A stretch of 64,000 bases of DNA from Niastella populi (GTDB lineage Bacteria > Bacteroidota > Bacteroidia > Chitinophagales > Chitinophagaceae), in contig NZ_LWBP01000199.1 of the NCBI RefSeq assembly GCF_002078015.1, positions 186,001 to 250,000 of the forward strand, written 5' to 3'. The notes below the pieces were generated by a model. The model made no database searches. It was not told where the DNA came from and saw nothing but the letters and a program-made list of their open reading frames with translations. This document shows, one piece after another, positions 14,625 through 60,639 of the stretch (positions are counted from its first letter, which is position 1; each line of letters begins with the position of its first letter). Made by a program: the position numbers and the translations under genes.

Positions 14625-14741
14625 TGATTTCTGATTTCGAGATTTAGTGATTTCGTGATTTACTTTAATGCCAGGTTTGCTATGAATGTATGTCTATGTA
14701 TTTCCAAATCTCAAAATCTAAAAATCCCGACATCTCAAAAT
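14625..14741. repeat. Inverted low-complexity spacer repeat ('gattt' word)
   Basis: The left arm at 14625-14662 (reiterated gattt-ctgattt-cgagattt) is the approximate reverse complement of the right arm at 14704-14741 (aaatctcaaaatctaaaaa). The TGA stop of the PKD gene (14735-14737) lies inside the right arm. The same word family recurs at about 22450-22530, 23264-23325 and 35770-35870. Confidence 0.6.
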
Positions 14742-15781
14742 ATACCCAGGAACCCCTGTTTCATTTTAAGACTTACATTCAACCCGATCAAACAATTGGT
14801 TTCACTGCTCTTTATTTGCTGCACGTTCAGTTGTTTGATCTTTTTGTCTGCCTTGATGGAGCTGAGCTTATTACAGAACTGGGTAAAAGTTATTTCCGTT
14901 CCATTCAAACTAACAGGCACATTCAGGTTATTACAGAAGTACGGACCAAAATTCTCTGCCGTCAGGTAATTATTCACTACGCCCCGCAGCTTGCTTTCCA
15001 GTTCCTGTTTGCTGATGGTTACACCCTGTGGTTTGGCCGGTTCCGCAACGGCAGGCTGCGGGTGGCTTTGTTCTTCAAGAGTTGGGCTTTGCGGTTTGGC
15101 CGGCACTACGATAAAGGCCGGTTGCTGGCGGGCCGGTACACGCGCATTCGACCTGGAAGGCGCCACGGTTTTATCGTTCACATACACTTTACATACACCC
15201 AGTTGTTTGGGATCGCCGTTAAGCACCAGTGAGATCGTTTTCAAACCGGGCGTTTTGTATACATAACTGGCGGTTGACGATGTGGCGTCTATACTGGCTG
15301 TTTCGCCAAAACGCCACTCCCAGCTATGAGCGCCGGCGGTTGTATCCTGGAAAGTTACCGTTTTGCCTACCTCGGCCACCTGCGGACAAACGAACCGTGG
15401 CATCAGCATGGGATTGTCGAGCCTGGGCGCTTTGGTAATGTAAATGGTCTTATACTCGGTGCATTTGCCGTTCACCGTTAAGGCTACGGTATATTCGCCC
15501 GGCTGGTTATAGGCATGCACTACCGAACTGATGTTTGTCTGGCTGCTTTCATTATCGCCAAAATCCCACTCGAAGTCTTTTGAATAAAGCGCGTCCGTTT
15601 CGAACCGGATGGGCTCATCGGTGCGAAAGAAATTTGCTTTTGCCTTTATATGAAAATCGAAACAATGTTCGTAATTCTTGTATTTGAACCCGGTTATCAC
15701 CAGGCCCAGCAAAGCCGTAATGATCATGGCGAGAATGACCTTTTCGTCAATATAAGCCAGCGGTAATTTTTTATTTTCCAT
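14735..15781 (-). CDS. PKD-domain inner-membrane protein, probable T6SS-iii membrane-complex component (TssP-like)
   Basis: 348 aa. A short cytoplasmic start is followed by one membrane helix at about 14-31 (VILAMIITALLGLVITGF). Two PKD-type beta domains lie in the periplasm: about 45-117 (WDFGDN at 72-77, YNQPGEYTVALTV) and about 128-205 (WEWRFGE). A Pro-rich linker spans about 206-255, and a C-terminal domain of about 90 aa completes it. T6SS-iii uses TssN, TssO, TssP, TssQ and TssR in place of TssJLM. This gene lies between tssH and tssO and has the topology expected of a periplasm-spanning part. I call it TssP-like by position and architecture, without certainty about the family. Confidence 0.75.
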   Translation of the reverse strand: MENKKLPLAYIDEKVILAMIITALLGLVITGFKYKNYEHCFDFHIKAKANFFRTDEPIRFETDALYSKDFEWDFGDNESSQTNISSVVHAYNQPGEYTVALTVNGKCTEYKTIYITKAPRLDNPMLMPRFVCPQVAEVGKTVTFQDTTAGAHSWEWRFGETASIDATSSTASYVYKTPGLKTISLVLNGDPKQLGVCKVYVNDKTVAPSRSNARVPARQQPAFIVVPAKPQSPTLEEQSHPQPAVAEPAKPQGVTISKQELESKLRGVVNNYLTAENFGPYFCNNLNVPVSLNGTEITFTQFCNKLSSIKADKKIKQLNVQQIKSSETNCLIGLNVSLKMKQGFLGIF

Positions 15782-15945
15782 AATTTTACTTTTGCATACA
15801 CGTTTATGGCAGTCGTGAAACGTGAAACGGTCCCGCCTGACGCGGAATGAAAGGCTCGCTGGTTGTAAGATTAATTTACGACCCTTGCACTATCCGAAAT
15901 GTTTGCCGATTGCCGTACTCATTGTAAACTGTATTTAGAAATACT

Positions 15946-16581
15946 ATGAAACGATTATCTTTTTTATCATATGGTTTTGGTTTTTTTCTGTTGATGCTGG
16001 CATCGTGCTCGGGCTCGCGTAAAACTACCAACCAGTACGAAACCATTGTAGTGAAACCTGCCGATCCGGCGCCCAATGCCAGGGCTGAAACGAAACTGAT
16101 GGCCAAATACGCGGCCTGGTTAAAAGTGTCGCCCGACAGCCTTTCCAATGTGGTGCTGTACGCCTTTATCGACAAGTGGCTGAAAACCCCTTACAAATAC
16201 GGCGGTATCGATGAAAAGGGGATCGACTGTTCGGGCTTTATCCAACGCCTTTTGAATGATGTGTACAACATTCAGGTGCCCCGCACATCGGCGCAACAGT
16301 TCTTTACAAAAAATGTGGAGGCGTTCCATGATAAAACTTATTTTTCTGAAGGCGACCTGGTTTTCTTTTGCACAGTGCCCGGCAATCCCATTTCTCACGT
16401 TGGCATGTATCTGAAGAACCGGTATTTCATCAATGCTTCCACTTCCAGCGGCGTAAGCCTTGCCAACCTCGATGATCCTTACTGGAAGAAACGTTTTGTG
16501 GCTGCCGGCCGGGTTCGTATAGTGAACAAACCTGCGGCCACTAATAAGAATCAACATCAAACAAAGAGCGCCAGACAATAG
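15946..16581 (+). CDS. NlpC/P60 peptidoglycan hydrolase lipoprotein inside the T6SS cluster
   Basis: 211 aa. A signal peptide ends in a lipobox (LASC, Cys21), so the protein is a lipoprotein. The NlpC/P60 domain covers about 65-195, with catalytic Cys95 in GIDCSGF, His151 in PISHVGMYL and a likely third residue Asn163 in FINAS. Family members cleave the D-Glu/diamino-acid bond in peptidoglycan stem peptides. It is the only plus-strand gene within the T6SS locus, convergent with tssO and divergent from the PKD gene. It could open the wall for the T6SS membrane complex, replace a missing lipoprotein such as TssQ, or be unrelated. Its TAG stop lies inside the adjacent repeat. Confidence 0.85.
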   Translation: MKRLSFLSYGFGFFLLMLASCSGSRKTTNQYETIVVKPADPAPNARAETKLMAKYAAWLKVSPDSLSNVVLYAFIDKWLKTPYKYGGIDEKGIDCSGFIQRLLNDVYNIQVPRTSAQQFFTKNVEAFHDKTYFSEGDLVFFCTVPGNPISHVGMYLKNRYFINASTSSGVSLANLDDPYWKKRFVAAGRVRIVNKPAATNKNQHQTKSARQ

Positions 16582-16682
16582 GCAATGGCAAATAAGCAAT
16601 AGGCAAATTGGAAGCTCGCGAATAATTGTAAAGTCTGAAGTCCGGCAACCCTTGCCAATAGGCAATTGCATATTGCCTATTG
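16577..16682. repeat. Inverted 'ggcaatag' spacer repeat between convergent genes
   Basis: Left arm from 16577 (aataggcaatggcaaataagc); right part contains a perfect 10-bp hairpin, caataggcaa at 16656-16665 with ttgcctattg at 16673-16682. Between the arms is agctcgcg, the core seen in other spacer repeats of this window. The left arm supplies the nlpC-type stop (TAG 16579-16581) and the right arm ends 2 bp before the tssO stop. Confidence 0.65.
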
Positions 16683-16684
16683 AC

Positions 16685-17206
16685 TTAAAACCCGGCTGCA
16701 TTACTTGCTCTTCTCAACAGGTCGATATCACGGCGGGCCTGATCAAGATCGCGCTGGGTTTGTTCATACTTCGATTTATAATCATCCAGCTGTTTGGGTA
16801 AATCGCCCATACTTACCACTTTATTGGTAGCATCCTGGTAACGCAGGTACAGGTCGAGCACATTTTTATTCATCCTGCTGTACATACTGCTGTCCTTGTA
16901 TTGCAGGTCAGTGAGCTCTCGCAGTTTGGCCGCTATCTGCTGGTTCAGGTACATGCTGTTAACGCCCGGTTGCTTCAGCGAATCGATCAGCACTTTTGCC
17001 TGGTCCATGCTGGTAACAAATCTTTCCTGCGCAATACTCTGATTGCGGTAACGGGTCACCTGCTCGCGCAGTACATCATTCTCTTTGAAAGGAATGCGCA
17101 TATCGAAATAAATAGCTCCTACAATGAGCCAGACGGATATAATGAAAAAGAACAAAAACTTCAAAAATGCACGGTTCCTTTCCCTGTGGTTTAATACGGT
17201 TGGCAT
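16685..17206 (-). CDS. tssO: T6SS-iii membrane-complex protein TssO
   Basis: 173 aa. A short basic N-terminus precedes a single membrane helix at about 14-34 (AFLKFLFFFIISVWLIVGAI), followed by a long helical, coiled-coil-prone periplasmic part with a C-terminal EQTQRDLDQARRDIDLLRR. TssO is one of the proteins that anchor T6SS-iii in the envelope in place of TssJLM. It sits 30 bp downstream of tssK in the same direction. Length and topology match the TssO family; the sequence itself is low in distinctive motifs. Confidence 0.85.
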   Translation of the reverse strand: MPTVLNHRERNRAFLKFLFFFIISVWLIVGAIYFDMRIPFKENDVLREQVTRYRNQSIAQERFVTSMDQAKVLIDSLKQPGVNSMYLNQQIAAKLRELTDLQYKDSSMYSRMNKNVLDLYLRYQDATNKVVSMGDLPKQLDDYKSKYEQTQRDLDQARRDIDLLRRASNAAGF

Positions 17207-17236
17207 TTTCTATTGGTTTAAATATTGTTTCGGTTA

Positions 17237-19316: not shown

Positions 19317-19440
19317 AGGTTAATTTGATTAATGTGCTAATTTGATAATGTGATAATGGAATACAAATACAAAAAACAAATGAAATACAAACGCAAATAA
19401 AAATTCAAATACAAATTCATACAACAAATACTATACGACT
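19317..19440. repeat. Low-complexity spacer repeat ('gataat' and 'aatacaaa' words)
   Basis: Between tssG and tssN. The first half reiterates taatttgataatgtgataatg and the second half reiterates caaatacaaa-type words up to the tssG stop at 19439. The gataat word recurs after tssF (20380-20415) and at 45095-45178; the gtatttgtattcgc word recurs at 52240-52320. Confidence 0.55.
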
Positions 19441-20374: not shown

Positions 20375-20521
20375 TTGTTAATGTGATAATTCGATAATGT
20401 GATAATTTGACAATGAATACAGTTCGTGCCGTACGCTTTCTTTCCTTTTTTAATTTCTCATTCTTCCTTTTTAATTTTTCATTTCCTTTCACTTCGACAT
20501 TCAATATTCGATATTCAACAT
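20375..20521. repeat. Low-complexity spacer repeat between tssF and tssG
   Basis: Starts with the gataat word (tgtgataattcgataatgtgataat), passes through reiterated tttttaatttctcatt and ends with cattcaatattcgatattcaacattc, which runs straight into the TGA stop of tssF at 20522. Confidence 0.5.
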
Positions 20522-22449: not shown

Positions 22450-22530
22450 GATTTTGAGATTTAGGGATTTTGAGATTTCATATAGTTCAGCATGCAGACA
22501 AATCCCAAAATCTAAAAAATCACAAAACCC
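22450..22530. repeat. Inverted 'gattttgagattt' spacer repeat
   Basis: Left arm 22450-22479 (gattttgagatttagggat and on) and right arm 22500-22524 (aaatcccaaaatctaaaaaa) are near reverse complements, separated by about 20 bp. It lies between tssE and tssF, and shares its word with 14625-14741 and 23264-23325. Confidence 0.6.
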
Positions 22531-25114: not shown

Positions 25115-25256
25115 AGGTTATTCAATTATTAAGCTATTAAGTTCATAAGTCATGAGTTCGCGGATAGCCGCGAGTTTAACTGAACAACTGAATAACTAAA
25201 CAACTGAATAACTAAACAACTGAATAACTGAACAACTGAATAACTGAACAACTGAA
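25115..25256. repeat. Octamer spacer repeat with core hairpin ('ctgaacaa' word)
   Basis: Right arm 25180-25256: nine octamers of the form ctgaacaa, ctgaataa or ctaaacaa plus a partial one. The left arm around 25118-25150 (ggttattcaattattaagc) is its degenerate reverse complement. A perfect core hairpin sits between them: tcgcgg at 25158-25163 and ccgcga at 25168-25173. The same octamer occurs at 41409-41575 and 55871-55917. Confidence 0.75.
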
Positions 25257-29007: not shown

Positions 29008-29664
29008 ATGATAAAACAGGAAGCATTAACGCTGGCAAAAAAATTATGGAACTATCATCAGCTGCAACATAAGCTCGAAATATCGGATTGTATTCTGGTT
29101 TTGGGAAGTGTTGATACCCGTACAGCCGAACGGGGTGCAGAGATCTATCTGCAGGGTTATGCGCCTATCATTATTTTTTCAGGAGGGCTGGGTAAACTTA
29201 CCAAAGATCTATGGCAGGGAACGGAGGCCGAACTGTTTGCTACCATTGCCCTCGACAAAGGCGTACCCCGCGAAGCCATCTTTATTGAAAACAAAAGCAC
29301 CAATACGGGCGAGAATATACTGTTCACGCAACAATTATTACAGGAGAAGAACCTGAACATGGAAAGCTTTATAGTGGTGCAGAAGCCCTATATGGAACGA
29401 CGCAGTTATGCCACTTTCAAAAAGCACTGGCCCAACAAAAAACTCCTCGTCACTTCTCCCCTGCTTTCGTTTGAAGAATATCCCAATGACACTATTTCTG
29501 TTGAAAAGCTCATCAACATGATGGTGGGTGATCTGCAGCGGATAAAATTATATCCCGAAAAAGGCTTCCAGGTTTACCAGGAGATCCCTGATGAAGTGTG
29601 GCAGGCGTATGAGGAGTTGGTTCAAATGGGATTTAACCAGCAATTGGTTAAAGGGGATTCTTGA
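29008..29664 (+). CDS. YdcF family (DUF218) protein
   Basis: 218 aa, soluble and without membrane helix. The DUF218 pattern is clear: CILVLGSVDTRTAERGAEIY near 28-47, PIIIFSGGLG, TEAELFATIALDKGVP, IFIENKSTNTGENI and a later VVQKPYMERRSYATFKK. Related proteins include YdcF, SanA and ElyC, which are linked to envelope or nucleotide-related functions, but the reaction of this soluble group is not known. It is convergent with purU. Confidence 0.85.
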   Translation: MIKQEALTLAKKLWNYHQLQHKLEISDCILVLGSVDTRTAERGAEIYLQGYAPIIIFSGGLGKLTKDLWQGTEAELFATIALDKGVPREAIFIENKSTNTGENILFTQQLLQEKNLNMESFIVVQKPYMERRSYATFKKHWPNKKLLVTSPLLSFEEYPNDTISVEKLINMMVGDLQRIKLYPEKGFQVYQEIPDEVWQAYEELVQMGFNQQLVKGDS

Positions 29665-29675
29665 CTGAATATAGG

Positions 29676-29853
29676 TATATGAAGTAAGAAGTAAGAGGTA
29701 GGAAATACGAAGTACGAAGCTCGCGAAATTCCGGCCTGTTGCTTTTGTTTAAGGCCTTGAAATAAGCGAAACCTGTATTCCTCTATCAACTCCATCACCT
29801 TTATCAACCTGTAAACTTGTTAACTTGTCAACTCCTTGTCAACCTGTCAACTT
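29676..29853. repeat. Two adjacent low-complexity spacer repeats between convergent genes
   Basis: The first (about 29678-29735) reiterates gaagtaagaagtaagaggta and ends with the core gaagctcgcgaaattccgg. The second (about 29807-29856) reiterates aacttgttaacttgtcaact and runs into the purU stop at 29854. The first word recurs at 47435-47505 and the second at 6670-6696, 40620-40645 and 57488-57540. Confidence 0.55.
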
Positions 29854-30681
29854 CTACTCAAACACCACGGTCTTATTCTTATACACCAGCACCCTGTCCT
29901 CAAACACCAGGTGCAGCGCCTTCGCCAGCACGGCGGTTTCAATTTCCTTACCGGCTTTCATCATATCGCCCGATGTATGCGAGTGTGTTACGGGAATGAT
30001 CTGTTGCGCGATAATAGGCCCTTCATCCAGCTCATTGGTAACGAAATGGGCCGTTGCACCTATCAGTTTAACACCACGCTCAAAAGCCTGTTTGTACGGA
30101 CTGGCGCCTACAAAGGCCGGCAAAAACGAATGGTGAATATTGATAATACTGCCGCTATACTTTGCCACGAAACCGGGCGACAGAATTCGCATGAACTTGG
30201 CCAGCACAATATAATCGGGCGCATATTTGTCTATCAGGCCTGCGATCTGTGCTTCAAATTCAGCTTTATCTTTTTGCTCATGCGATACCTGGTAAAAGGG
30301 TATATCGAACCGCTGGCTGATATTCTGCAGTGTATCGTAATTGCCTATCACGCATTGTACCCGTGCGCCCAGCGTTTTAAAATGATTGCGGATGAGGATA
30401 TCGGCCAGGCAATGGTACTCTTTGGTTACCAGCACAACTACTTTCTTCTCGGGCTGCGGGTTCACTTTTATGATCGCATCGGGCGGCAGTACCGCTTTCA
30501 GTTTTTGCTCCAACGCCTCCGAACCGGTTTCCTGTTCAATATGCACCCGTATAAAAAAGCGGTTCTCTATTTTGTCAACATGCTCGCGCAGTGAAACTAT
30601 GTTCAGCTGTTCCTTAGCCAAAACGCCGGTAATACCGGCAACAAGCCCAACCTGGTCTTTACTTTGAATAACAACGATCAT
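29854..30681 (-). CDS. purU: Formyltetrahydrofolate deformylase PurU
   Basis: 275 aa. It hydrolyses 10-formyl-THF to THF and formate, balancing one-carbon pools and supplying formate for purine synthesis. Residues 1 to about 80 are an ACT domain (QSKDQVGLVAGITGVLAKEQ). The formyltransferase-like domain follows, with the catalytic triad Asn181, His183 (NIHHSFLPAF) and Asp219 (NELDEGPIIAQ). Length is usual for the family. It stands alone, convergent with the YdcF gene. Confidence 0.94.
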   Translation of the reverse strand: MIVVIQSKDQVGLVAGITGVLAKEQLNIVSLREHVDKIENRFFIRVHIEQETGSEALEQKLKAVLPPDAIIKVNPQPEKKVVVLVTKEYHCLADILIRNHFKTLGARVQCVIGNYDTLQNISQRFDIPFYQVSHEQKDKAEFEAQIAGLIDKYAPDYIVLAKFMRILSPGFVAKYSGSIINIHHSFLPAFVGASPYKQAFERGVKLIGATAHFVTNELDEGPIIAQQIIPVTHSHTSGDMMKAGKEIETAVLAKALHLVFEDRVLVYKNKTVVFE

Positions 30682-35097: not shown

Positions 35098-35187
35098 AAA
35101 CTTATATTTACCATAACTCAGTATATTACCAGACAGACAGGTGAAGCCATACCCTAAACGGCCCGAAAAAAAATGATGCAGAAAAAA

Positions 35188-35748: not shown

Positions 35749-36600
35749 AGCTGAAGTTAACGAGAAATTTCTGATTTCGGGATGTAGAGCATTAGAGATT
35801 TGGCGACCTTCTGAAAAAACAAAATCAATAAATTTCAAAATAAATAAATCTCAAAATCAGAAATCTAAAAACCGATTGCTTACCTATAGTGCCCTTACTG
35901 GACAGAAAAGGCAGTACGGGCAAGCCACTGTTAAAAACCTTCTATAATAGATCAAGAAAGGCCAATTAGTAAAAAGTTGATTCCGTATATTAAATGAATC
36001 CGGGAGCCGGCAATGCCGGGGTTATAATCCTGGTCATTGGGAGAAAGCCGGGAGCGACTCGTCTTTCATCCCCGCAAAATAAGGGCAGGTGTAAATCATT
36101 GACCCTCCTGCAAAATATCGTTCCACCTTACCCGTTGTAATGCCACCGGCCCCGGATCATCATTCTATAGCCCAAAATGTTAAGATCTTCACAGGTTTCC
36201 GACTTAGTGCAATTGCAATCTATCATGCCTGTTATATAATATAAGAGTACGAATCAAATACACGGGCGTCAGTAGTGTAGCGGGGTACATATGGCCTGTT
36301 TAGCATTATTGTTGTCGAATAACGCTTTGAGGGCTTATGCATCAGAGCACCCAATAAGTTTGTACCGCCGCTAACACTTTCCGACTATGTATGTATTAAA
36401 AACCGTCCTTTCAAATATCTAATGCAATATACAACACATCATTTCTTTTATTTGCACAATTTCGATTTTTATTTTCACATTTTCACCTGTTCCATACTGT
36501 TAGTGTTATGTAAACATTAAACTCATCATTTGTATGGCAAAAGAAATATCGCCAAAGTGATTTCACTTTGCATGACAAGGTTTATATGTTCACTACGCCT
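35749..36600. other. Gene-free stretch upstream of the sigma factor gene
   Basis: About 850 bp. A gattt-word inverted repeat lies at 35770-35870 (ctgatttcgggatg side and aaatctcaaaatcagaaatc side), next to the sigma gene start. The rest shows no coding frame, tRNA or obvious structure that I can support. Confidence 0.5.
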
Positions 36601-37882: not shown

Positions 37883-37904
37883 GCTGTGATTATTTAAAAC
37901 AAAA

Positions 37905-41408: not shown

Positions 41409-41575
41409 GTTGTTCAGTTATTCAGTTGCAAGTTCGTGACTTCATGAATATCATACACTCGCAATTAGTAGCGAGTCTGAACAACTGAACAACTGAACAA
41501 CTGAACAACTGAACAACTGAACAACTGAACAACTGAACAACTGAACAACTGAACAACTGAACAACTGAACAACTG
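41409..41575. repeat. Octamer tandem repeat with inverted arm and core hairpin, extending into the kinase gene
   Basis: Twelve perfect copies of ctgaacaa fill 41477-41572, plus a partial ctg. A shorter opposite arm lies at 41409-41428 (gttgttcagttattcagttg). The core between them has a perfect hairpin, actcgc at 41457-41462 with gcgagt at 41471-41476, directly abutting the octamers. The octamers encode the C-terminus of the neighbouring histidine kinase. Confidence 0.9.
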
Positions 41576-44500
41576 TTTAACCGGTATGTAAAAATAGAAC
41601 GTAGCCCCCTGCCCCGGTAAACTTTCCGCCCGCATAAAACCATGATGGTTCTCTACGATCTTTTTACAAATGGCCAGCCCAATACCCGAACCGGTATATT
41701 CATTACGGCCATGCAGCCGCTGAAACAGTTCAAAGATCTTCTCCGCATATTCCTGTTCAAATCCGATACCGTTATCGGCTACTGAGAACTGAAAATAATC
41801 CTTACCCGGCAGGGCGCCTTTTGCATTCAGGTCTTTTGCTTTTATATAATCTGCTTTTATTTCAATAACCGGCGTTACCCCTTCCCTTGAATACTTCAGC
41901 GAATTACTGATCAGGTTCGACAGCAATTGCCTGAACTGAAACGGGATAATGGTCAGTGTAGGTAAATGCGCCGTTTCTATCACCGCCTTTTTTTCTTCAA
42001 TGCGGAGCCCCAGTTCCTTCCTTACTTCATCGAGCAATACATTCAGATCGGTATTTTCAAAATTCTTCCGCGCGGTTGTGGTACGGGAGAATTCCAGTAA
42101 GGAGTCGATGAGGTTTTGCATGCGAACGGCCGCTTTAACCATGCGCTCGAAATAATCCTTGCTGGTATCGCTTAAATTGGCAACGTCGCGTTGTTGTATG
42201 AGGTTACCGAATGCCTGGATCTTTCGCAATGGCTCCTGCAGGTCGTGACTGGCCACGTAACTGAATGACGACAATTCACTATTGCTGCGTTCCAGTTCGC
42301 GGTTCTTTTGCTCCAGCTGCTCGGCATACATTTTCAGGCGGTCTTCTGCAAGCTTGCGTTGCGTAAGATCGCGCGTCACTTTTGAAAAGCCGATGATGTC
42401 GTTCCTGTCGTTATGCAATGCGGTGATCACCGTATATGCCCAAAAAGTTGACCCATCCTTACGAACACGCCAGCCTTCAAATGTTGATTTGCCATGCCTA
42501 ACGGCTTCTTCAATCAGTCTTTCCGCCAGGCCGTGCTGCTGATCGGCGTGGTTATAAAAGATCCTGAAGTGCCTGCCGATGATCTCATCGGCTGTATACC
42601 CTTTTATTTTTTCGGCGCCCTTATTCCAGTTCTCGATATAACCATCCCTGCTCAACAGGATGATGGCATAATCTTCCACTTCATTGGTCATACGTAAATA
42701 CCGTTCTTCGCTCTGGCGCAGTTGCTCATGGCGTTGCTGCAGTTGCTGGTTGATCTCTTTCAGTTCACGGGTTGTTTCTTCCAGCGCCTGGTTCTTCTGG
42801 TATAATTCATGTGTTCTTTCCGCTACCCGGTTTTCCAGTTCGATCCTGATCGTTTTACGTTCATGGATATCGATGCTTGAACCGATATAACCGAGAAAAG
42901 TGCCGTCGTACGAAAACCGCGGAATGCCCTGGCACACGATCCAGCGGTAATGGCCGTCATGCCGTTGAAGGCGGAATTCCACTTCAAAGTCGCTCCTGTT
43001 TTCATACGCCTGATTATAAATCTCCAATCCGTTATTGAGGTCATCTTCAAAGATGCCTTCCTTCCAGCCATCCCATAACTCCTGCTCCATCGTGCGGCCG
43101 GTAAATTCGAGCCACCGTTTATTGAAGAAGGTAAAGCGCTTTTGCGCATCCGACATCCATACCATTACCGGCGCCGAGTTCACCACTACCCTGAACCGCT
43201 CTTCGCTTTCGCGCAGGGTGTGCTCTATCCGTTTTACGTCATCAATATCGGTACAGGTTCCATACCATTTAATGATGTGGCCATGTTCATTTGTAATAGG
43301 CCTGGCGCGTACCAGGAACCAGCTATATGCATCTATGGGCGCTTTTACCTTGAACCGGAATTCACCTTCATATGGTTCACCCGACTTCACTACCTCATGC
43401 CAGCTGGATAAACACCGTTCATAGTCGTCGGGGTGAACATGAGCCATGAAGCTTTCATCTCCGTACTGGTTCTCTTCCCCTATCAGCAGGTACCATTGTT
43501 TGTTATAATAATCTACATAGCCATCGGCTGCGGCCGTCCATACGATCTGTGGCATTGAATCGGCAAGCTGCCGGAATTGTGCTTCCCTGAGCCGCACGGC
43601 ATTTTCGGCCTGTTTACGCTTATCGATATTGATCACCGAACCGATAAACCCTTCAAACGCGCCCTGTTTGTCAAAAACAGGCGAACCGGAGTCGAGGATC
43701 CAGCGGTATACCCCATCTGACCCTTTTATGCGGTATTCAAGATTGAAAGGCGCCTGCCGGGCATTGGCTTCCTGAAAAGCGGTTGTCATTTGATCCACAT
43801 CATCAGGATGAACGACAGATAACCATCGCCGCCCCAGCGTTTCTTCCTGCGGCTGCCCTGTATAGTCGTACCATTTCTGGTTTACATATGTGCAATGTCC
43901 GTCGGGCCGGGTAATCCAAAGCATTACCGGAACGGTGTCGGCCAGCCTGCGGAAATAGTGCTCGCTGTTTTCCATCCGTTTTCTTTCCACTTCAAAATCG
44001 GTTACTTCGCGGGCAACCAGCATAACGCCCGTAGTACCCGTGGCTTCCTGAACCGGAAAGAACAGTATATTGAAATAAGATTCTACCAACCGGCCGTTTT
44101 GCATTACCTGGAACGCCATTCCGTTCTCGATATGCGATTGCCCGGTTTCCATAACCTGGTCGATCAGCTTTTTAAAATGTAGTGCCTCCGGTTCGGGTGA
44201 TCGCTCGAAGATCGAATGCCCGGCCAGGTCGTTGACAGCCCTGCCCGTCATTTTTAAATAGGCCTCATTGGCCAGTTCAACCACATAGTCCTGCTTTCTT
44301 AAAACAAGTATTCCAATAGGAAGCTGCAATAATACCTCATAGATTTTTTTATGCCGGGCCGAAAGGCGGGTGTTGTTTTCGCTGGCGGTAACCAGTACGC
44401 CGCCTGTTTCTCCTGTTTCGGTTACGAGCGGAATGCACGAGAAGGTATAGGCCGCTGTTTCGGAATTGCCATGCCGGCTGGTAACGATCGTGATATCGGG

Positions 44501-44842
44501 TATTGTTGAAGGCCGCCCCTGCAGGGCCTGCTCAAAGGCCGGGGACAGGATATTCCATTGTTCGGCAAATACGGTTTGAACCGGCTGGCCCATAGCCTCG
44601 CCGGGAAATGCCGCTATCAGCGGCCGGCACGCATCGTTATACATTAAAGCGCCTGCCGGGCCCCAGGCGACGAACATGGGTACGTGCGAATGCAATATGA
44701 TACTGATGGTAGTGTGCAGTAGTTGCGGCCACGTTGCCGGTACTCCCGCCGGGCTGGCCGACCAGTTGGTCGACCTCATCAGTTGCCCTGCTTCACCGCC
44801 ACCTGATATAAATTCTGGTTTATCCAAGGCGTTCACCTCCAT
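41465..44842 (-). CDS. Multi-PAS sensor histidine kinase with repeat-encoded C-terminal tail
   Basis: 1125 aa. An N-terminal PAS-like domain is followed by about five more PAS/PAC units over about 150-830, recognisable from repeated blocks such as WYDYTGQPQEETLGRRWLSV and GYTADEIIGRHFRIFY. HisKA has the phospho-acceptor His at about 864 (SYVASHDLQEPLRKIQAFGN). HATPase has NLISNSLKYS, DNGIGF and GSGIGLAICKKIVENH. There is no membrane helix, so it is a cytoplasmic sensor, and no response regulator is adjacent. The catalytic domain ends at FYFYIPVK (1089). The last 36 residues are four copies of QLFSCSVV plus QTRY, encoded by the octamer repeat, and are probably not functional sequence. Confidence 0.92.
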   Translation of the reverse strand: MEVNALDKPEFISGGGEAGQLMRSTNWSASPAGVPATWPQLLHTTISIILHSHVPMFVAWGPAGALMYNDACRPLIAAFPGEAMGQPVQTVFAEQWNILSPAFEQALQGRPSTIPDITIVTSRHGNSETAAYTFSCIPLVTETGETGGVLVTASENNTRLSARHKKIYEVLLQLPIGILVLRKQDYVVELANEAYLKMTGRAVNDLAGHSIFERSPEPEALHFKKLIDQVMETGQSHIENGMAFQVMQNGRLVESYFNILFFPVQEATGTTGVMLVAREVTDFEVERKRMENSEHYFRRLADTVPVMLWITRPDGHCTYVNQKWYDYTGQPQEETLGRRWLSVVHPDDVDQMTTAFQEANARQAPFNLEYRIKGSDGVYRWILDSGSPVFDKQGAFEGFIGSVINIDKRKQAENAVRLREAQFRQLADSMPQIVWTAAADGYVDYYNKQWYLLIGEENQYGDESFMAHVHPDDYERCLSSWHEVVKSGEPYEGEFRFKVKAPIDAYSWFLVRARPITNEHGHIIKWYGTCTDIDDVKRIEHTLRESEERFRVVVNSAPVMVWMSDAQKRFTFFNKRWLEFTGRTMEQELWDGWKEGIFEDDLNNGLEIYNQAYENRSDFEVEFRLQRHDGHYRWIVCQGIPRFSYDGTFLGYIGSSIDIHERKTIRIELENRVAERTHELYQKNQALEETTRELKEINQQLQQRHEQLRQSEERYLRMTNEVEDYAIILLSRDGYIENWNKGAEKIKGYTADEIIGRHFRIFYNHADQQHGLAERLIEEAVRHGKSTFEGWRVRKDGSTFWAYTVITALHNDRNDIIGFSKVTRDLTQRKLAEDRLKMYAEQLEQKNRELERSNSELSSFSYVASHDLQEPLRKIQAFGNLIQQRDVANLSDTSKDYFERMVKAAVRMQNLIDSLLEFSRTTTARKNFENTDLNVLLDEVRKELGLRIEEKKAVIETAHLPTLTIIPFQFRQLLSNLISNSLKYSREGVTPVIEIKADYIKAKDLNAKGALPGKDYFQFSVADNGIGFEQEYAEKIFELFQRLHGRNEYTGSGIGLAICKKIVENHHGFMRAESLPGQGATFYFYIPVKQLFSCSVVQLFSCSVVQLFSCSVVQLFSCSVVQTRY

Positions 44843-45178
44843 ACAAAAAATGATTTGTGCACAGGGCGCTGACCGGCTTTACATTCGTTTTTTAGGTTAT
44901 AACAGCGTTCAGGGCCCTTTTCCATTACTCATTGAAAATAGCAGATATTCATGAATTCAGGTAAAATTTTTAATAACCTGCATGGGCAACGCTTACAAAA
45001 GCACATCGATGTTTTTATTGGAAAGAAAATAGCCACCCGGAGGTAGCTATTATTTATACTAGGGCCAGGTTGGTTCAAAAAGTCAATGTGCTGATTTGCT
45101 AATGTGCTAATGAGATGAAATCGCCAACCGCCATCTGCCATCTGTATTCAATTAGCACATTATCACATTAGCAAATTA
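44843..45178. other. Spacer between the kinase and the EF-G-like gene
   Basis: 336 bp. It holds the hairpin at 45028-45052 and an inverted low-complexity repeat at 45088-45178: gtgctgatttgctaatgtgc on the left, and aattagcacattatcacatt on the right, around a cgccatctgccatctg core. The right arm runs into the stop of the EF-G-like gene. Confidence 0.6.
45028..45056 (-). terminator. Terminator-like hairpin downstream of the EF-G-like gene
   Basis: aatagccacc pairs with ggtagctatt (one mismatch) at 45028-45052, with A/T-rich flanks on both sides. It lies about 125 bp after the EF-G-like stop and close to the kinase start, so it can insulate the two. Confidence 0.55.
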
Positions 45179-47314
45179 TTACACCAGTTCTTCCTTCGCC
45201 GTTTTTGAGTAATCGTCTATCAGCCTGCGCTGCTCATCGAACGGCACGGCAACATAGTCGTAAAACCTCATAGTGAACTTGGCGCGGCCCTGGGTTATCG
45301 ACCTCAGGGATGAGGAATACCCGTCCATTTCGGCCAGCGGCACCTTGGCGATCACTTTCTGGAAATGGCCCTGGGTATCGATACCTTCCACTATGGCCCG
45401 CCGGCTTTGCAGATCGCCCATAACGGCGCCGGTCAAATCGTCGGGACATAACACATCAACCTGGTACACGGGTTCCAGTATCTGCGGGTCGGCCTGCTGA
45501 AAAGCCTGTTTAAAGGCCATTAAACCGGCTATTTTGAAAGAAATATCATTACTATCAACCGGGTGCATTTTGCCGTCGTAAACCGATACCCGAACGTCAC
45601 GAACATACGACCCGGTCAGCGGGCCTGTGTGCATTTTCTCCATAACACCTTTTAAGATCGAAGGCTGGAAGCGATTGTCGATCGCGCCGCCCACAATACA
45701 GTTAAAATAAACGAGTTTACCGCCCCAGTCAAGATCATGCACATCGCGGCCGCGAACGGTCAATCCGTGCGGATCGGGCATGCCTTCATGCCAGGGCTCT
45801 ATCCGCAGGAACACTTCGCCAAACTGGCCGGCGCCCCCGCTCTGCTTTTTATGGCGGTAGTTGGCTTCGGCCATGCGGCGAATGGTTTCGCGGTATGGGA
45901 TGCGTGGTTTTACGAATTTTACTTCTACTTTATGTAAATGCTCTATTTTCCATTTGGCCACCGCAAGGTGCATATCGCCCTGGCAATGGATCAGCGTTTG
46001 TTTTAGTTCCTGCGATACTTCCACTATCAGTGTGGGATCTTCTTCCTTCAACTGGTGCAATGCCTGTGACAGTTTTTCCTCTTCCCCTTTCTTCAGCGTT
46101 TCTATGGCCACCGACATATTGGGTGGTGGAAATTCAATGGCAGGCAGTTCGTAATTCTTTCCCTTTACATGCAGGGTATTGTTAACATGCGTGTTTTTAA
46201 GTTTAAGCGTGGCGCCTATATCGCCGGCAACCAGTTCGCTGATGTTCGTGCGTTTATTTCCTTCTACCGAAAACAACTGGTTCAGCTTTTCTGTAACGCC
46301 GGTTGATTCGTTCTCCAGTTCCATACCGCTTTGAACGGTGCCTGAGTATACTTTAAAGAACGACAATTCGCCAACGTGCGGCTCACTGATGGTCTTGAAA
46401 ATAAAGATGCAGGCCGGACCGCCGGCTTCGCAGGGCAATGGTTGTCCGCCCTGTGTTTTTTGCGCCGGCATTTCATTGGCGCTGGGACAAACGTTATCTA
46501 TAAATCCCATCAGGCGGCCACTGCCCATATTCCTTTCTGCCGAAAGACAGAATACGGGGAACAGATCGTGATTGATCATGGCTTTTTTCAAACCGCTTTT
46601 CATTTCATCTTCATCCAGCTCGCCCTTGTCGAAGTATTTTTCCATCAGCGTTTCGTCGTTGCTGGCCACCGCTTCAATAAGTTCCTTGTGCAGTTCATCG
46701 GCGCGTTCCCGTTCATCGTCGGGTATGGGCAGTTTTTCGGGTTTACCGCCCGTGTCTTTGAATTTATACATGGTCATGCGAAGCACATCGATGATCTCGT
46801 GAAAGCCGGCGCCCTGTTGCCGCGGATATTGCACCACAGCCACCTTGCCGCCAAAATGGGCTTTGGCTTCGCGAATGGTTTTTTCGAAATCGGCATTGTC
46901 TTCATCGAGCTTATTCACCGCAAAGATCATGGGCGTTTTAAACTGTTCGGTGTAATCCCAGATGATGTCGGTGCCCACTTCAACACCCATAACGGCATTG
47001 AGCAGCATAACGCCGGTATCGGCTACCCTGAGGGCCGAGATCACTTCGCCAACGAAATCGTCGTAACCGGGTGTGTCAATGATGTTGATCTTATAACCCC
47101 GCCATTTGGTGTGCATTAATTTGGAGAAGATGGAGTTACCGCGTTCCTGTTCCAGTTCGTGGTAATCACCGATGGTGTTTCTTTCGGCAATGGAGCCGCG
47201 GCGGGTAATGAGGCCTGCTTCATATAGCATGCATTCCGCCAACGTGGTCTTGCCGCAGCCGGCGTGGCCCAGCAAGACTACATTCTTTACGTGTGAGGTA
47301 TCAAATTCAGCCAT
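45179..47314 (-). CDS. Elongation factor G-like GTPase
   Basis: 711 aa from the ATG at 47314 (MAEFDTSHVKNVVLLGHAGC); an in-frame ATG lies 3 codons earlier. GTPase motifs: G1 GHAGCGKT (16-23), G3 DTPGYDD and G4 NKLD. Domain II (HVGELSFFKVYSGTVQSG), domain III, domain IV (YRETIRRMAEANYRHKKQSG) and domain V follow as in EF-G. The sequence belongs to the EF-G-like (FusA2-type) group, which coexists with the true EF-G and is not normally next to rpsL-rpsG. The precise role of this group is unsettled: ribosome rescue, recycling or translation under stress have been proposed for relatives. Confidence 0.9.
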   Translation of the reverse strand: MAEFDTSHVKNVVLLGHAGCGKTTLAECMLYEAGLITRRGSIAERNTIGDYHELEQERGNSIFSKLMHTKWRGYKINIIDTPGYDDFVGEVISALRVADTGVMLLNAVMGVEVGTDIIWDYTEQFKTPMIFAVNKLDEDNADFEKTIREAKAHFGGKVAVVQYPRQQGAGFHEIIDVLRMTMYKFKDTGGKPEKLPIPDDERERADELHKELIEAVASNDETLMEKYFDKGELDEDEMKSGLKKAMINHDLFPVFCLSAERNMGSGRLMGFIDNVCPSANEMPAQKTQGGQPLPCEAGGPACIFIFKTISEPHVGELSFFKVYSGTVQSGMELENESTGVTEKLNQLFSVEGNKRTNISELVAGDIGATLKLKNTHVNNTLHVKGKNYELPAIEFPPPNMSVAIETLKKGEEEKLSQALHQLKEEDPTLIVEVSQELKQTLIHCQGDMHLAVAKWKIEHLHKVEVKFVKPRIPYRETIRRMAEANYRHKKQSGGAGQFGEVFLRIEPWHEGMPDPHGLTVRGRDVHDLDWGGKLVYFNCIVGGAIDNRFQPSILKGVMEKMHTGPLTGSYVRDVRVSVYDGKMHPVDSNDISFKIAGLMAFKQAFQQADPQILEPVYQVDVLCPDDLTGAVMGDLQSRRAIVEGIDTQGHFQKVIAKVPLAEMDGYSSSLRSITQGRAKFTMRFYDYVAVPFDEQRRLIDDYSKTAKEELV

Positions 47315-47565
47315 AGCAAACAATTTTTTAAAATGAAGAATAGGTAGTTTTAAAAGGTATGGATGCGGTCCTTCAACTACGCAAGGACTTTTCGGCTGTA
47401 TTCAGGGGAATGAGAAAAAACGGTATTACGTCTGTGAGGTACGAGGTTAGAAGTATGGGGTAAGAAGTTTGTGAGTTTTCCTGCTTCCTACTTCGTACTT
47501 CTCTTGCATAACTATTCATAGCCTGCTTCAGAACGAAAGCAGGTTTACATTATTTACTCTACTTT

Positions 47566-51797: not shown

Positions 51798-52428
51798 GCC
51801 GAAGGTTTTTGTAATAAGCTTTTCAGGTTATAAAAAATAGACGGGATTGCAAAGGTATGAAATGTTGTTCACGGGATAAAAAAAAAATAACAACATTGGT
51901 GCAGCGTATTAAAATCTGCACCAAATGCTGTTAAAATTTATAGGATGGGTTTAATCTAAAACCGTCAGCCTCAGGCTGCAAGCCGTTATCGCCTGCAAAT
52001 ACCGAGGTTATAAAAAATATTGGTGAACAGGTGTAGCTAAAGTGTTTTGCCACTCAAAAAAACCGCTAAACCCCTTCATATAATGAATTGTATTATGTGT
52101 ACTAATGACAAAAATGACATTCCATCAGCTTGCAACACCGCCTGAACTTAAAGCTGTATACTTCATCTCGCCTCAGGCTTTAAACTTTAACCTTTAGCCT
52201 GCATTGTATTAGCGTGCGGCGTGCAGCTGTATTTCCCTGTATTTGTATTCGCTTTAGGCTTTGGGCTTTCTCCTTTCGCCTGTATTTGTATTCGCGTGCA
52301 GCTTGCAGCCGTATTTGTATTCACTTAGAACTTTAAACTAAGAACTGCGAACTATGAACTATAAACTGCGAACTGCGAACTATGAACTATAAACTGCGAA
52401 CTGCGAACTATGAACTGTGAACTATGAA
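51798..52428. repeat. Spacer with several low-complexity repeats
   Basis: 631 bp without a gene. From about 52200 it becomes repetitive: ctgtatttgtattcgc recurs three times at 52240-52320. Two exact 28-bp tandem units (52345-52372 and 52373-52400) built from the word gaactatgaactataaactg follow, and then a partial third. The repeat runs into the stop of the amidase gene (52429). A caaaggta box at 51850-51857 is the likely -7 element of the DUF3052-like gene (minus strand). Confidence 0.7.
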
Positions 52429-54231
52429 CTATTCCAGATTTATCTTCCTGAAACGGTGACTATCATTATCGGTAACATTGGTGTTCACTGCAAATAATGT
52501 CCATTGCTGACGGCTTTTGCCTGTATAACCGGTTTGCAATACTGCCGCGCCATTGTTAGCCGAACCGGCAAATACGTCAAGCACTTTGCCGCTTGCTTTA
52601 TTAACCAGTTTGCATTCGCCTTTATTACCAACTTCGATTAATCGCCACAGTTGGCTGTCATTCTCTTTTGTATCTTTTAAACAGATCTGAACATGTTCTT
52701 TGGTTCCGCCCGGCACATCGAGGGCGCGACCGCTTACCATACTGGTGATGCGGTACCACCCCTCCCCTGCATAATCGAAACGCCAGCACTGACAGTTCAA
52801 CCCGCTCCAGGCCGTTTGGGTAACCTTAGCCAGTTGATTGCCCGAGCAATTGCGGGTGTTCAATACTTTTTTACTGCTCACATTGGTAATGCGGTAAACG
52901 CCATTGGCAACGGTCATGAATTTTATTTCCTTTCCATCCTCTATCGTTTCTTTCTGCATAACGAAGTCGGCATACTTGTGCCAGTTCCAGTATTTACCGG
53001 GGTCTGTATGGGTTTGACCATTGAAATGCTGATGTCCTTTTATACTGAAAGCTGCCGACAGCAGGTGGGCCCCGGCCGAAGCAGCGCCGCGGTAACAGGT
53101 TGTTTCATCGATGGAACGCCGGGCACAGATATCACGCACCAATGCAGCCGAAGAGCGGTATAGTTTGTCTGTGTACCATTTATTACCGTTCTGAATATAT
53201 CCTTCATGTTCGATCCCTATTGTATAAGCATTGGCATTTTGTGCATGCAATGCCATATCGCCTTCTTTCACCATTTGCGTTATTTGTCCATCGCCCGACC
53301 GTACAATGTAATGCGATGATCGGTGTGCGCCGCTATTCCTGAACCAGGAAATAGTGGCGGCATAACTTCCCTGCGTAGTATGAATGGTTACATGGGTGAT
53401 CTTGCTGCCATTGCGCCCGCTTTGGTAATTGCTGTTGTTTGCTTTTACGTACAGCGCCGGCTTATAATCTGCCTCCGTTACTACAGCCTCATGAGTGCTG
53501 ACTGCAGTTTCTACATGCGTAGCCGGGATGATAGCGGTGGTAAAGGGTTGCACCGTTTTGTTATTGCCGTATGCAATGCTGTCCTTCTCTACGTTGATCT
53601 CGATGGCCGGTGATCGTAGTTTTTTCAATAAAGGCGCCGGGAAGATCTGTTCCATCCCGATCTTAACCGGCGCTCTTTTCAGCGAAGCGGTAGTAAACCC
53701 GTTTCGCAAGTGATCATATATATCATATTTGTACAGGGCCAATGCATACCTGTTGATCACCGAACTGTCGTTGGGAAACTCAGCCAGTTTATCAAATATC
53801 TCCGCAAACGCTTCCGGGCTGAGCTTTACATCAATTTGTTTGAAGCTGGCTTCACGGCTCAGGAACTTGGCTACCGCAAGGATCTGTAACCGAACATCTT
53901 TGTTGTATTGCTCAGGTGTAATGTTGCTGCTGTTGCAAACCGTTAGCAGGTTGTTTTTGAAATAACCGCGGCCGTTCTCAACAAGTGCGAACAACCCATA
54001 CCGTTGTGGCATCCCGGTGCAGTTACCGGCATCGGTTGCAGACGGCTGCAGGTTCGTCATGCGTGAGGCAGAATAAGCTGCCGCTTCCAGTACGCCGTTC
54101 GGAATGTTTGGATAGCGCCAGTAAGCCTCTTCAAAATATGTTTCCAAACCTAAAATGGTTTGTTGTGCCTGTACCAGCAAATGAAACATGATTCCCACGG
54201 TAGTTAGTGCAAGCAATTTCAGCTTTCTCAT
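52429..54231 (-). CDS. N-acetylmuramoyl-L-alanine amidase with C-terminal ricin-type lectin domain
   Basis: 600 aa. A signal peptide (1-22) leads to an extracytoplasmic protein. The N-terminal part (about 25-190) is helical, begins LGLETYFEEAYWRYPNIPNG and contains a short YGLFALVENG segment; I do not recognise it. An Amidase_2 domain lies at about 275-410 with zinc-ligand His residues (THVTIHTTQG, IEHEGY, IKGHQHFNGQTHTDPGKYWN). A ricin B-type domain follows at about 434-580, with the QxW-like repeats CQCWRFDYAG, SQLWRLIEVG and RQQWTLFAV. It would cleave peptidoglycan between MurNAc and the stem peptide, possibly on bound wall sugars. Confidence 0.9.
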   Translation of the reverse strand: MRKLKLLALTTVGIMFHLLVQAQQTILGLETYFEEAYWRYPNIPNGVLEAAAYSASRMTNLQPSATDAGNCTGMPQRYGLFALVENGRGYFKNNLLTVCNSSNITPEQYNKDVRLQILAVAKFLSREASFKQIDVKLSPEAFAEIFDKLAEFPNDSSVINRYALALYKYDIYDHLRNGFTTASLKRAPVKIGMEQIFPAPLLKKLRSPAIEINVEKDSIAYGNNKTVQPFTTAIIPATHVETAVSTHEAVVTEADYKPALYVKANNSNYQSGRNGSKITHVTIHTTQGSYAATISWFRNSGAHRSSHYIVRSGDGQITQMVKEGDMALHAQNANAYTIGIEHEGYIQNGNKWYTDKLYRSSAALVRDICARRSIDETTCYRGAASAGAHLLSAAFSIKGHQHFNGQTHTDPGKYWNWHKYADFVMQKETIEDGKEIKFMTVANGVYRITNVSSKKVLNTRNCSGNQLAKVTQTAWSGLNCQCWRFDYAGEGWYRITSMVSGRALDVPGGTKEHVQICLKDTKENDSQLWRLIEVGNKGECKLVNKASGKVLDVFAGSANNGAAVLQTGYTGKSRQQWTLFAVNTNVTDNDSHRFRKINLE

Positions 54232-55763: not shown

Positions 55764-55870
55764 TTAAGAAAATCAACAAGGTTATTTTTAAATAATAACA
55801 ATTATTGATGTGTAGGTGGGAATTAATTGCCACAAATAGCCTACCGCCCGCTTACCGTGTAACGGCAAAC

Positions 55871-55917
55871 TGAACAACTGAACAACTGAACAACTGAACA
55901 CTGAACAACTGAACAAC
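55871..55917. repeat. Octamer tandem repeat ('ctgaacaa')
   Basis: About six copies of ctgaacaa, with one deletion to ctgaaca in the fourth. Same word as at 25180-25256 and 41477-41575. It lies upstream of the M48 gene and about 20 bp downstream of the plsY stop. Confidence 0.8.
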
Positions 55918-55940
55918 TCAGGAATGCCTATGAATTATGT

Positions 55941-57489: not shown

Positions 57490-57542
57490 TTACGTTAACT
57501 CGTTGACAAGTTAACTAGTTAACGGGTTAACTCGTCAACTAG
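57488..57542. repeat. Palindromic 'gttaac/gtcaac' repeat upstream of prmA
   Basis: From acgttaactcgttgac to gggttaactcgtcaactag, the sequence is close to its own reverse complement around agttaactagttaac. The word also occurs at 6670-6696, 29807-29856 and 40620-40645. Here it lies within 10 bp of the prmA start. Confidence 0.7.
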
Positions 57543-57550
57543 CTTAAATA

Positions 57551-59754: not shown

Positions 59755-59870
59755 ACTAAAAATGTAGTTTAATGGTCGCTATTAAAGCCTGCAATAGGTG
59801 GGATGTAGCGCCGGCAATAAGCAGCAACCGGTTATTTAAAACAACAAGTTCAGAAAAAAAGTATAGCAAA

Positions 59871-59911
59871 AACAACTATTCCCAACCGGAAAACAGTTGG
59901 GAATAGTTGTT
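59871..59911 (-). terminator. Terminator of rpsO
   Basis: A perfect 16-bp stem: aacaactattcccaac (59871-59886) with gttgggaatagttgtt (59896-59911), 16 bp after the rpsO stop. Confidence 0.85.
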
Positions 59912-59926
59912 TATTATAATATAAAC

Positions 59927-60199
59927 TTATTTTCTGATTCCAAGTTTTTCGATTAAAGCACGGTAACCTTGCAGGTTATGTTTGCTCAGGTAAGTGAGCA
60001 GGCGCTTACGTTGACCCACCAGTTGCATTAAGCCACGGTGAGTAGAGAAATCCTTCTTATTTTGTTGAAGGTGTAAAGAAATACTGTTGATGCGTTCTGT
60101 CAACAACGCAATCTGGCCCTCAGTGGAACCTGTGTTTTTAGCATTGCCACCATATTGTGCAAATACGCTCGAAACTTTCTCTTTAGTTAAATAAGGCAT
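59927..60199 (-). CDS. rpsO: 30S ribosomal protein S15
   Basis: 90 aa. S15 binds 16S rRNA early in 30S assembly. The family signature GSTEGQIALLTERINSISLH and the HRGLMQLVGQRKRLLTYL segment are clear. Upstream of pnp, as in most bacteria. A strong terminator separates the two, so pnp may depend on partial read-through or its own promoter. Confidence 0.97.
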   Translation of the reverse strand: MPYLTKEKVSSVFAQYGGNAKNTGSTEGQIALLTERINSISLHLQQNKKDFSTHRGLMQLVGQRKRLLTYLSKHNLQGYRALIEKLGIRK

Positions 60200-60639
60200 C
60201 TCAATTTTTTTAAAAACATCCAGAAATTATCTTCTTAATTTGGCGGCAAAGGTATGTAAAAATTATAATTGAGTGGAATTTTTTAGAAAGAAAAACCTGT
60301 TTTTGCCTGTTTTACAGTACTGAAATCAAGCAGTTTGTGGTTTATGGTTTGTAGTTTCTGGTTGACTCCTCATTTTGAGGCTCGCCTTCAATTGTTTAGA
60401 CTCAAAAAATGATAAAACATAAACCGATTGCCTTATTTTGAGGCTCGAAATTACTCAGAGATCTGAAAGAAAGAACTACAAACAACAAACCACAAACAAT
60501 AAACAAGTGCTATTTTGAGGCCCGAAATTAGTTATACATTCCAAAATTGAACGAACCATAAACCATAAACTATAAACCATAAACGCTAACTAATTATCTG
60601 TCAGCTACATATAGTAAAAAAGTTACCCTTACAAACCCA
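60200..60639. repeat. Divergent spacer with large 'gttt' inverted repeat and three-fold core motif
   Basis: Left arm 60333-60357 (gtttgtggtttatggtttg) is a near-perfect reverse complement of 60474-60497 (aactacaaacaacaaaccac). A further copy of the word follows at 60550-60590. The loop and right flank contain ttttgaggctcg at 60373-60384 and 60436-60447, and ttttgaggcccg at 60513-60524. It sits between the divergent rpsO and glycosyltransferase genes. Confidence 0.8.
60247..60254 (-). promoter_or_regulatory. Probable -7 box of rpsO
   Basis: caaaggta, read on the minus strand as TACCTTTG, matches TAnnTTTG and lies 48 bp upstream of the rpsO start. The -33 box is not clear. The same octamer is found upstream of the DUF3052-like gene (51850-51857). 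Confidence 0.5.

Follow-up and report, generated by a model that had tools for sequence, protein, structure and literature searches.

Repetitive extragenic palindromic (REP) sequences, bacterial interspersed mosaic elements (BIMEs) and REPINs (REP doublets forming hairpins) are extragenic, occur in many copies and have a palindromic core and inverted doublets. In Drosophila, the terminal inverted repeats of the foldback elements FB, Galileo and Tetris are long and composed internally of short tandem repeats, and for Galileo a transposase is known. A REP is a palindrome of 20-40 bp, one end of which bears a GTAG- or CGTC-type tag (PMC3733652); the TAACTGA heptamer repeats of Beggiatoaceae, Cyanobacteria and five Bacteroidetes are direct and lie mostly just 5' of start codons, the 170 sets of the main genome including a single inverted one (PMC4679880); and BrickBuilt of Porphyromonas gingivalis is an intergenic miniature inverted-repeat transposable element (MITE) with a tandem repeat and small inverted ends (PMC4596501). 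Heptamer arrays between genes have already been described in Bacteroidetes, as has a Bacteroidota MITE that encloses a tandem repeat. Here we describe tandem arrays of 7-8 nt words, many of them with an inverted partner, in the spacers of Niastella populi, both in a 64,000-nt stretch of its genome (contig NZ_LWBP01000199.1, positions 186,001 to 250,000; hereafter the window) and beyond it. We read these word elements as putative non-autonomous elements of gene 3' ends, foldback- or REPIN-like, in which heptamer or octamer arrays serve as interchangeable arms, an interpretation to which we give an even chance of being right.

Like REP sequences and REPINs, the Niastella elements are extragenic and multicopy, with a palindromic core and inverted doublets; their arms, however, are site-specific, replaceable arrays of 7-8 nt words, and it is the arm, not the palindrome, that makes up most of the element. 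They share with the foldback elements terminal inverted arms of tandem short repeats, but FB, Galileo and Tetris are eukaryotic and longer, whereas the Niastella elements are small and bacterial, with 7-8 nt units and many alternative words. The TAACTGA repeats are likewise intergenic heptamer arrays of patchy distribution, missing in relatives with the same neighbouring genes; they use a single direct word near start codons, whereas Niastella has many words, inverted arms and a position at stop codons. BrickBuilt is also an intergenic, MITE-like Bacteroidota repeat with a tandem repeat inside, but it has one 23-bp unit in its body and, by its description, no word replacement, whereas the Niastella arms consist of 7-8 nt words. 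The preliminary description of the window had set its elements apart from CRISPR, REP and MITE. CRISPR is indeed ruled out, the units being 7-8 nt long and without unique spacers as opposed to 24-48 bp repeats with regular spacers, but the elements stand less clearly apart from REP and MITE than claimed, the architecture being close to that of REP doublets and foldback elements. In the open-access literature we found no account of word arms that are inverted and interchangeable and lie at stop codons; subscription papers were outside the scope of this search.

The genome is an 8.6 Mb draft from the Niastella group, of which 1.25 Mb were surveyed with a simple codon-based gene model; array and spacer counts below refer to this part. 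Arrays were defined as tandem repeats of period 6-30 detected in spacers by Tandem Repeats Finder (TRF), which overlooks some short arrays discernible by eye (e.g. in the g21/g22 spacer). The survey yielded 288 arrays in 190 of 696 spacers, mainly with periods of 7, 8 and multiples of these, against 5-9 arrays per dinucleotide shuffle of the spacers and 47 arrays in 992 kb of gene interiors. Head-to-tail units of 7-8 nt thus occur in spacers above chance, as in long simple sequence and heptamer repeats. Chance or low complexity as the source of the arrays was ruled out by the shuffles together with composition-matched 6-mers.

The words form a vocabulary of about 17 families, each with a constant part of 4-5 nt and 2-3 variable positions, and the same families come back throughout the genome (70 of the 288 arrays have no family assignment, and swap counts omit them). 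Inspection by eye took in part of the spacers and arrays, and the word-table rows AAGTA to AGGCAAC (including AATGTGAT) were left out of it. All eight words listed in the preliminary description were found at or near the places it gave, differing by site as it had said, and 17 of the 39 window spacers of at least 30 nt contain a TRF array, a few of them A/T-rich and not word-like (e.g. 15782-15993 and 35098-35187). Its proposal that the arms diversify by local duplication is unsupported as written: the roughly 17 families are found genome-wide and many of them in sister species, two that were searched for also occur sparsely in other genera, and a word can be exchanged whole at a given site. 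Because the vocabulary is shared across sites and species, local duplication alone is insufficient, although local slippage may be the source of the scrambled order of unit variants. Adenine-directed word variation, as in diversity-generating retroelements, was considered on the basis of the word tables and dropped, because the variable positions are not restricted to A. Regional clustering of word families is a weak signal, with a common family in 25 of 142 pairs of adjacent array-bearing spacers (null mean 14.9, maximum 29 in 2000 shuffles).

Inverted partners were sought for the 247 arrays of period 7, 8 or multiples that had sufficient remaining spacer, at a local score of at least 16. An inverted partner was present in the array's own spacer in 97 cases (39.3%) and a direct partner in 38 (15.4%), while draws from other array-bearing spacers gave an inverted partner in 6.2% of 4940 cases. 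Inverted arms built of tandem short repeats, as in foldback elements, are thus found at these 97 arrays and in the AAAC elements described below, and inverted doublets in extragenic space, as in REP sequences and REPINs, are found as well. The arrays are not direct repeats devoid of element structure, since inverted partners and a core occur, though not at every array. When folded as RNA, spacers with inverted arms had a median z of -3.78 relative to shuffles and 27 of 35 fell below -2, compared with 9 of 40 sampled spacers with partnerless arrays and 12 of 40 sampled spacers without arrays. The two arms of one site have their word in common but are not exact mirrors: in 35 pairs, the order of unit variants was no more alike between same-site arms of the same family (0.695) than with arms from other sites (0.680; p = 0.64). 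Base-by-base complementarity kept between the arms was tested for and not found.

Five 6-mers lead the enrichment in the 45 nt around arrays, namely CTCGCG, TCGCGG, GCTCGC, TCGCGA and ACTCGC, each next to arrays from 7-9 families. CTCGCG is 11-fold more frequent in 60-nt array flanks than in array-less spacers and ranks first of 60 6-mers of the same composition (median 1.2); TCGCGA ranks second of 102 in these 60-nt flanks. Pooled, core-type motifs reach 2.79 per kb in array flanks against 0.43 in array-less spacers, and 18 of the 57 spacers with inverted arms have one within 60 nt. The preliminary description had asked of its elements that the arms be inverted, and a CTCGC-type core be present, more often than in the background, and on neither count do these comparisons refute it. 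GAATACA/AATACAG (CTGTATT) is also enriched, next to arrays of eight word families, and sometimes divides neighbouring arrays of different words.

The arrays are concentrated at the 3' ends of genes. Among the 680 stop and 712 start ends bordering spacers, an array edge comes within 5 nt of a stop codon in 96 cases and of a start codon in 12, counting arrays that reach as far as 20 nt into the gene at either kind of end. At 56 of the 96 stop-abutting edges the array overlaps the final bases of the reading frame. TAG stops account for 32 of the 96, compared with 171 of 897 overall, an excess that is expected if the words themselves provide the stop. Gene 41465-44842(-) reads into an octamer array and gains four C-terminal LFSCSVVQ repeats; its best ortholog DNA matches are without these repeats and stop at query 3267-3273 (about 41570-41576), where the array starts. 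The nearest relatives of this gene in named genomes are from Niastella and Longitalea, with more distant ones in Flavobacterium and others. On inspection, terminators distinct from the word elements adjoin them at g29/g30 and g39/g40, so the elements are not simply the terminators. They could be transcribed as 3'-end hairpins.

The N. populi window has syntenic counterparts in N. vici, Niastella sp. OAS944, N. caeni, N. koreensis, L. arenae and L. luteola, with 78-81% nucleotide identity to it. At orthologous spacers the flanks are conserved and the word elements are gained, lost or changed, and many of the N. populi word families are also found in the six sister species. Of 109 species pairs compared at the same spacer, 44 have a family in common, where 2000 shuffles gave a mean of 8.9 and at most 24, and the other 65 have different families, which indicates that the elements are partly inherited and partly replaced. 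In spacer 29665-29853, read by eye, N. populi has GAAGTAA and GTCAACCT arms and OAS944 has GTTGATAA and GAACTAT; GATTTTGA-type words form both arms in L. luteola, L. arenae and N. vici, as do AGTAGTG-type words in N. caeni and N. koreensis. Elements are present in some species and absent in others between conserved flanks at g15/g16, at g39/g40 and 5' of the Y1 gene discussed below. When 150 species-spacers were split at a fixed midpoint and their halves scored for complementarity (at least 18), own halves were complementary in 10 (6.7%). When the two halves came from one site but two species, the share was 1.9% of 724 pairs, and when they came from two sites, 0.6% of 726. Own halves thus match better than cross-species halves, as expected when both arms change together, although the numbers are small (10 of 150). 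An earlier version with a variable split (65 of 191 own halves against 36 of 191 in a chimera control) was biased, as the split maximised the own-arm score, and the fixed split was used instead.

Fixed junctions are seen in the AAAC family. The genome has 24 copies of a 16-nt junction, GCTGCCGCRCTTTGAG, with up to one mismatch, and none of its reversed-pattern control. Words of the form GTTTRTD stand directly before it, at least three of them at 17 of the 24 places, a truncated arm at six and none at one. Nine of the junctions form one tandem cluster across the end of contig C196 and the start of C197 (C196:71768-72712; L215-L223), reaching the contig end, with spacings on C196 of 168, 168, 168, 168, 96 and 161 bp; two of the C197 copies are identical to C196 copies across the stretch compared, perhaps owing to an assembly overlap. 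Outside this cluster, 14 of 15 junctions have full arms. On the far side the elements often continue with CTCGCG..ATAAAKGAAC or the like, followed by AAAC words. Measured against the whole-length homology of MITEs, AAAC elements have constant junctions and differ in presence between relatives, but their centre and arms are variable.

Patterns for two word families, AAAC and GTTRAC, were sought in 147 genomes of the taxonomic family. AAAC-type arrays occur in 19 of these genomes and GTTRAC-type arrays in 8, so that the two words occur, sparsely, in other genera. AAAC matches number 252 and 137 in the two genomes of the genus among the 147, 176 in genome G115 and 44 in G119, and the reversed AAAC pattern gave at most one match per genome except in G060 (six). 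The reversed GTTRAC pattern is less clean, with 64 against 312 matches in the N. populi genome itself and 23 against 1 in G089. Two of the six AAAC-type arrays displayed for G119 end inward in CTAAAGAAC and the other four in near variants; CTAAAGAAC resembles ATAAAAGAAC of N. populi, and the remainder of the core differs. A separate observation concerns viral contigs (L262-L288), in which 27 stretches have AAACCAY arrays, several of them shortly upstream of an ATG.

REP sequences and REPINs go with a cognate Y1 transposase (TnpA-REP, RAYT), its gene bordered by copies of them. A candidate mobilising enzyme was sought among Y1/HUH genes. Y1 genes of the Bacteroidetes subclass 2.6 are reported to have 'atypical secondary structures' on their flanks, copies of which lie elsewhere in the genome, and those of subclass 1.2 to be generally without typical terminal structures (PMC6006769). 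The motif of the conserved Niastella Y1 protein, Y---Q--HH, is the one given for subclass 1.2. One strong gene copy is found in 10 of 10 genus genomes (at about 137.8 kb of contig C145 in N. populi, L238; L289-L297 in the others), and in the loci read it adjoins what we take to be DAHP-synthase-like and aroB-like genes. Nine of the 10 genomes have a word element upstream of the Y1 gene, with two different words among them, and in G009 the site is clearly empty; no word element was seen in the 60 nt 3' of the gene in the genus genomes. Y1/HUH relatives of any subclass (E <= 1e-6) occur in 77 of the 147 family genomes; among the 19 genomes that have AAAC arrays, 14 contain such a relative, and among the other 128, 63 do. 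Because relatives are present in those 63 genomes without AAAC matches, the link of this gene to the elements as their cognate transposase is weak, and its single strong copy in all genus genomes is suggestive at most of a mobiliser.

Given that junctions stay fixed, that the vocabulary is shared and that elements are present in some relatives and absent in others, we prefer a dispersed, non-autonomous element whose arms are inverted words to slippage of a purely local kind. The proposed family would comprise short (about 80-250 bp), hairpin-forming, non-autonomous repeat elements at gene 3' ends, in which a typical complete copy runs from the stop codon through an array of a 7- or 8-nt word and a centre (with TCGCGA or CTCGCG in a minority) to the same word inverted. 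Copies would appear at new gene ends and persist or be lost, and at occupied sites one arm word can give way to another; within an array, slippage or unequal exchange would scramble the units, keeping the word and not the variant order. Dispersal may be transposition-like, by copying via single-stranded foldback DNA, arms may be swapped by element-to-element recombination at shared cores, and gene ends may be favoured because insertion there is harmless. If this is true, one modular repeat system shapes a large share of the genus's spacers, exactly at gene ends, and can alter C-termini and 3' untranslated regions, rewriting arms between species. It would also be a natural case of inverted-repeat sequence being exchanged while place and fold stay, and would open a direct test of how the heptamer arrays of Bacteroidota, Cyanobacteria and Beggiatoaceae originated. 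A bolder form of this interpretation, a bacterial class of 3'-end foldback elements with a limited 7-8 nt vocabulary in which both arms are rewritten jointly on word exchange, seems to us rather unlikely. Position and hairpin would then be inherited and the arm sequence interchangeable, with reiterative copying, possibly by an HUH endonuclease or by snap-back synthesis; we know of no bacterium with such an arm-rewriting copying process.

Several observations weigh against the foldback- or REPIN-like interpretation. The inverted arms of the preliminary description hold for 97 arrays, but 150 of the 247 (about 60%) have no inverted partner at score 16, and a core-type motif lies within 60 nt in just 37 of the 190 array-bearing spacers, so that its further claim of one element type is too strong. 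GAGATTT arrays have no fixed core, nor do the AATGTGAT arrays among the spacers read by eye, and both may for this reason be another element. Some spacers combine two words, and in 140 of the 150 species-spacers the two halves do not pair strongly at score 18. Across whole co-directional spacers the bias is milder, with 111 arrays closer to the stop and 70 closer to the start. No transposase could be linked to word elements in the genome: the Y1 gene is flanked on its 5' side alone, and its occupancy is matched at several other spacers. The Y1 site, compared filled and empty, provides the single case of a TA...TA pair; a general target-site duplication was not found, and none is clear by eye at g15/g16 or g39/g40.

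Some of the evidence would also suit structures made by the host. The abutment of stop codons, the RNA folding z of inverted-arm spacers and the occupation of the same spacer in several species by different words are all consistent with selected stem-loops of the 3' untranslated region that protect or process mRNA ends, arising by local slippage and quasi-palindrome template switching to the other arm, with pairing and composition limiting the words. We regard this explanation as doubtful: same-site arms are no more alike than others in the 35 pairs, which means that the variable positions are not kept paired; separate terminators adjoin the elements at g29/g30 and g39/g40; the fixed AAAC junctions require copying; and the vocabulary is genus-wide, with two words also in other genera. 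Each word might instead be what a DNA- or RNA-binding protein recognises, with 4-5 bases fixed and 2-3 free, such that a word swap changes the factor at a gene end. Their fixed and variable positions, the retention between arms of the word but not of the variant order, and the slight excess of common families in neighbouring spacers (25 of 142 against a null mean of 14.9) all agree with this, but no binding protein was identified and many different words do the same positional job; we consider it quite improbable.

Neutral slippage of heptamers and octamers in poorly constrained 3' spacers, without any element, would account for the dominance of periods 7, 8 and their multiples and for the majority of arrays that have no inverted partner, and bacterial heptamer arrays are known (PMC4679880). 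It is already disfavoured by the frequency of inverted partners (39.3% against 6.2%) and has the fixed junctions, the enriched core and the shared vocabulary against it as well; we consider it very improbable.

The features of the window are collected in Table 1. Four of the five core coordinates in the preliminary description are correct (16612-16622, 25158-25173, 41457-41476 and 60373-60447); the remaining one is displaced, as GCTCGCGA begins at 29719.

Table 1. Word arrays, arms and cores in the window, in window coordinates; no strand is assigned to any element.
Feature	Position	Source	Remarks
Arm, GATTTCG/GAGATTT	14625..14661	TRF	27 nt upstream of start of ORF 12127-14598(-); GAGATTT in 4/7 species
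Inverted arm AAATCTCAAAATC	14706..14741	TRF	Overlaps stop of gene 14735-15781(-)
Arm, CAATAGG	16577..16608	TRF	Convergent genes either side
Core AAGCTCGCGAA	16612..16622	Motif check	
Inverted arm TTGCCAATAGG..TTGCCTATTGA	16652..16683		End adjoins stop of gene 16685-17206(-); orthologous spacers differ
Word tract AATGTGAT/AATTTGAT	19321..19358	TRF	Word assigned in 5/7 species here, traces by eye in remaining two
Word tract AATGTGAT	20379..20415	TRF	GTGAAAC-, GTTRAC- or GTTGATA-type words in OAS944, N. koreensis
Arm GATTTTGAGATTT	22450..22478	TRF	Element in N. populi and L. luteola, absent in other five species
Inverted arm AAATCCCAAAATCTAAAAAATC	22500..22529	Spacer reading	
Palindromic core TCGCGGATAGCCGCGA	25158..25173	Motif check	
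Arm, AACTGAAC/AACTGAAT, 9.9 octamers	25178..25256	TRF	
Arm, GAAGTAA	29681..29719	TRF	17 nt past stop of gene 29008-29664(+)
Core AGCTCGCGAAA	29718..29728	Motif check	Earlier placed at 29730-29740
Second arm, different word GTCAACCT	29804..29852	TRF	End adjoins stop of gene 29854-30681(-)
Arm TTGTTCAGTTATTCAGTTGC	41410..41429		Behind separate intrinsic-terminator-like hairpin starting 41373
Palindromic core ACTCGCAATTAGTAGCGAGT	41457..41476	Motif check	
Inverted arm, 12.4 perfect octamers CTGAACAA	41477..41575	TRF	Translated within gene 41465-44842(-)
Arm AATGTGCT	45085..45112	TRF	
Inverted arm ATTAGCAC	45151..45183	TRF	Continues into stop of gene 45179-47323(-)
About 15 imperfect heptamers GAACTAT/GAACTGT	52328..52432	TRF	Ends at stop of gene 52429-54231(-); other species: other words or none
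Word tract AACTGAAC	55868..55918	TRF	Sister species: other words or none
Word tract GTTAACTC	57494..57547	TRF	Adjoining hairpin-T terminator in 7/7 species, word element not
Arm GTTTGTGG (AAAC family)	60333..60363	TRF	
Core region, two TTTTGAGGCTCG motifs	60373..60447	Motif check	
Inverted arm AACAACAAACC	60474..60506	TRF	
Further arm AAACCAT	60554..60584	TRF	

Known RNA families were ruled out for the window, in which Rfam covariance models gave 0 matches at the gathering threshold. Two long spacers, 35749-36600 and 36943-37904, gave no Rfam match even at E <= 1. Both are similar in length in the sister species, and the first has near-identical stretches in the six genomes compared; they are possibly an undescribed structured RNA. 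A separate palindromic repeat with GTGCCACACTT, which belongs to none of the word families, is found at C1:355031 and 399394 of the N. populi genome and also in L. luteola and L. arenae at g39/g40.

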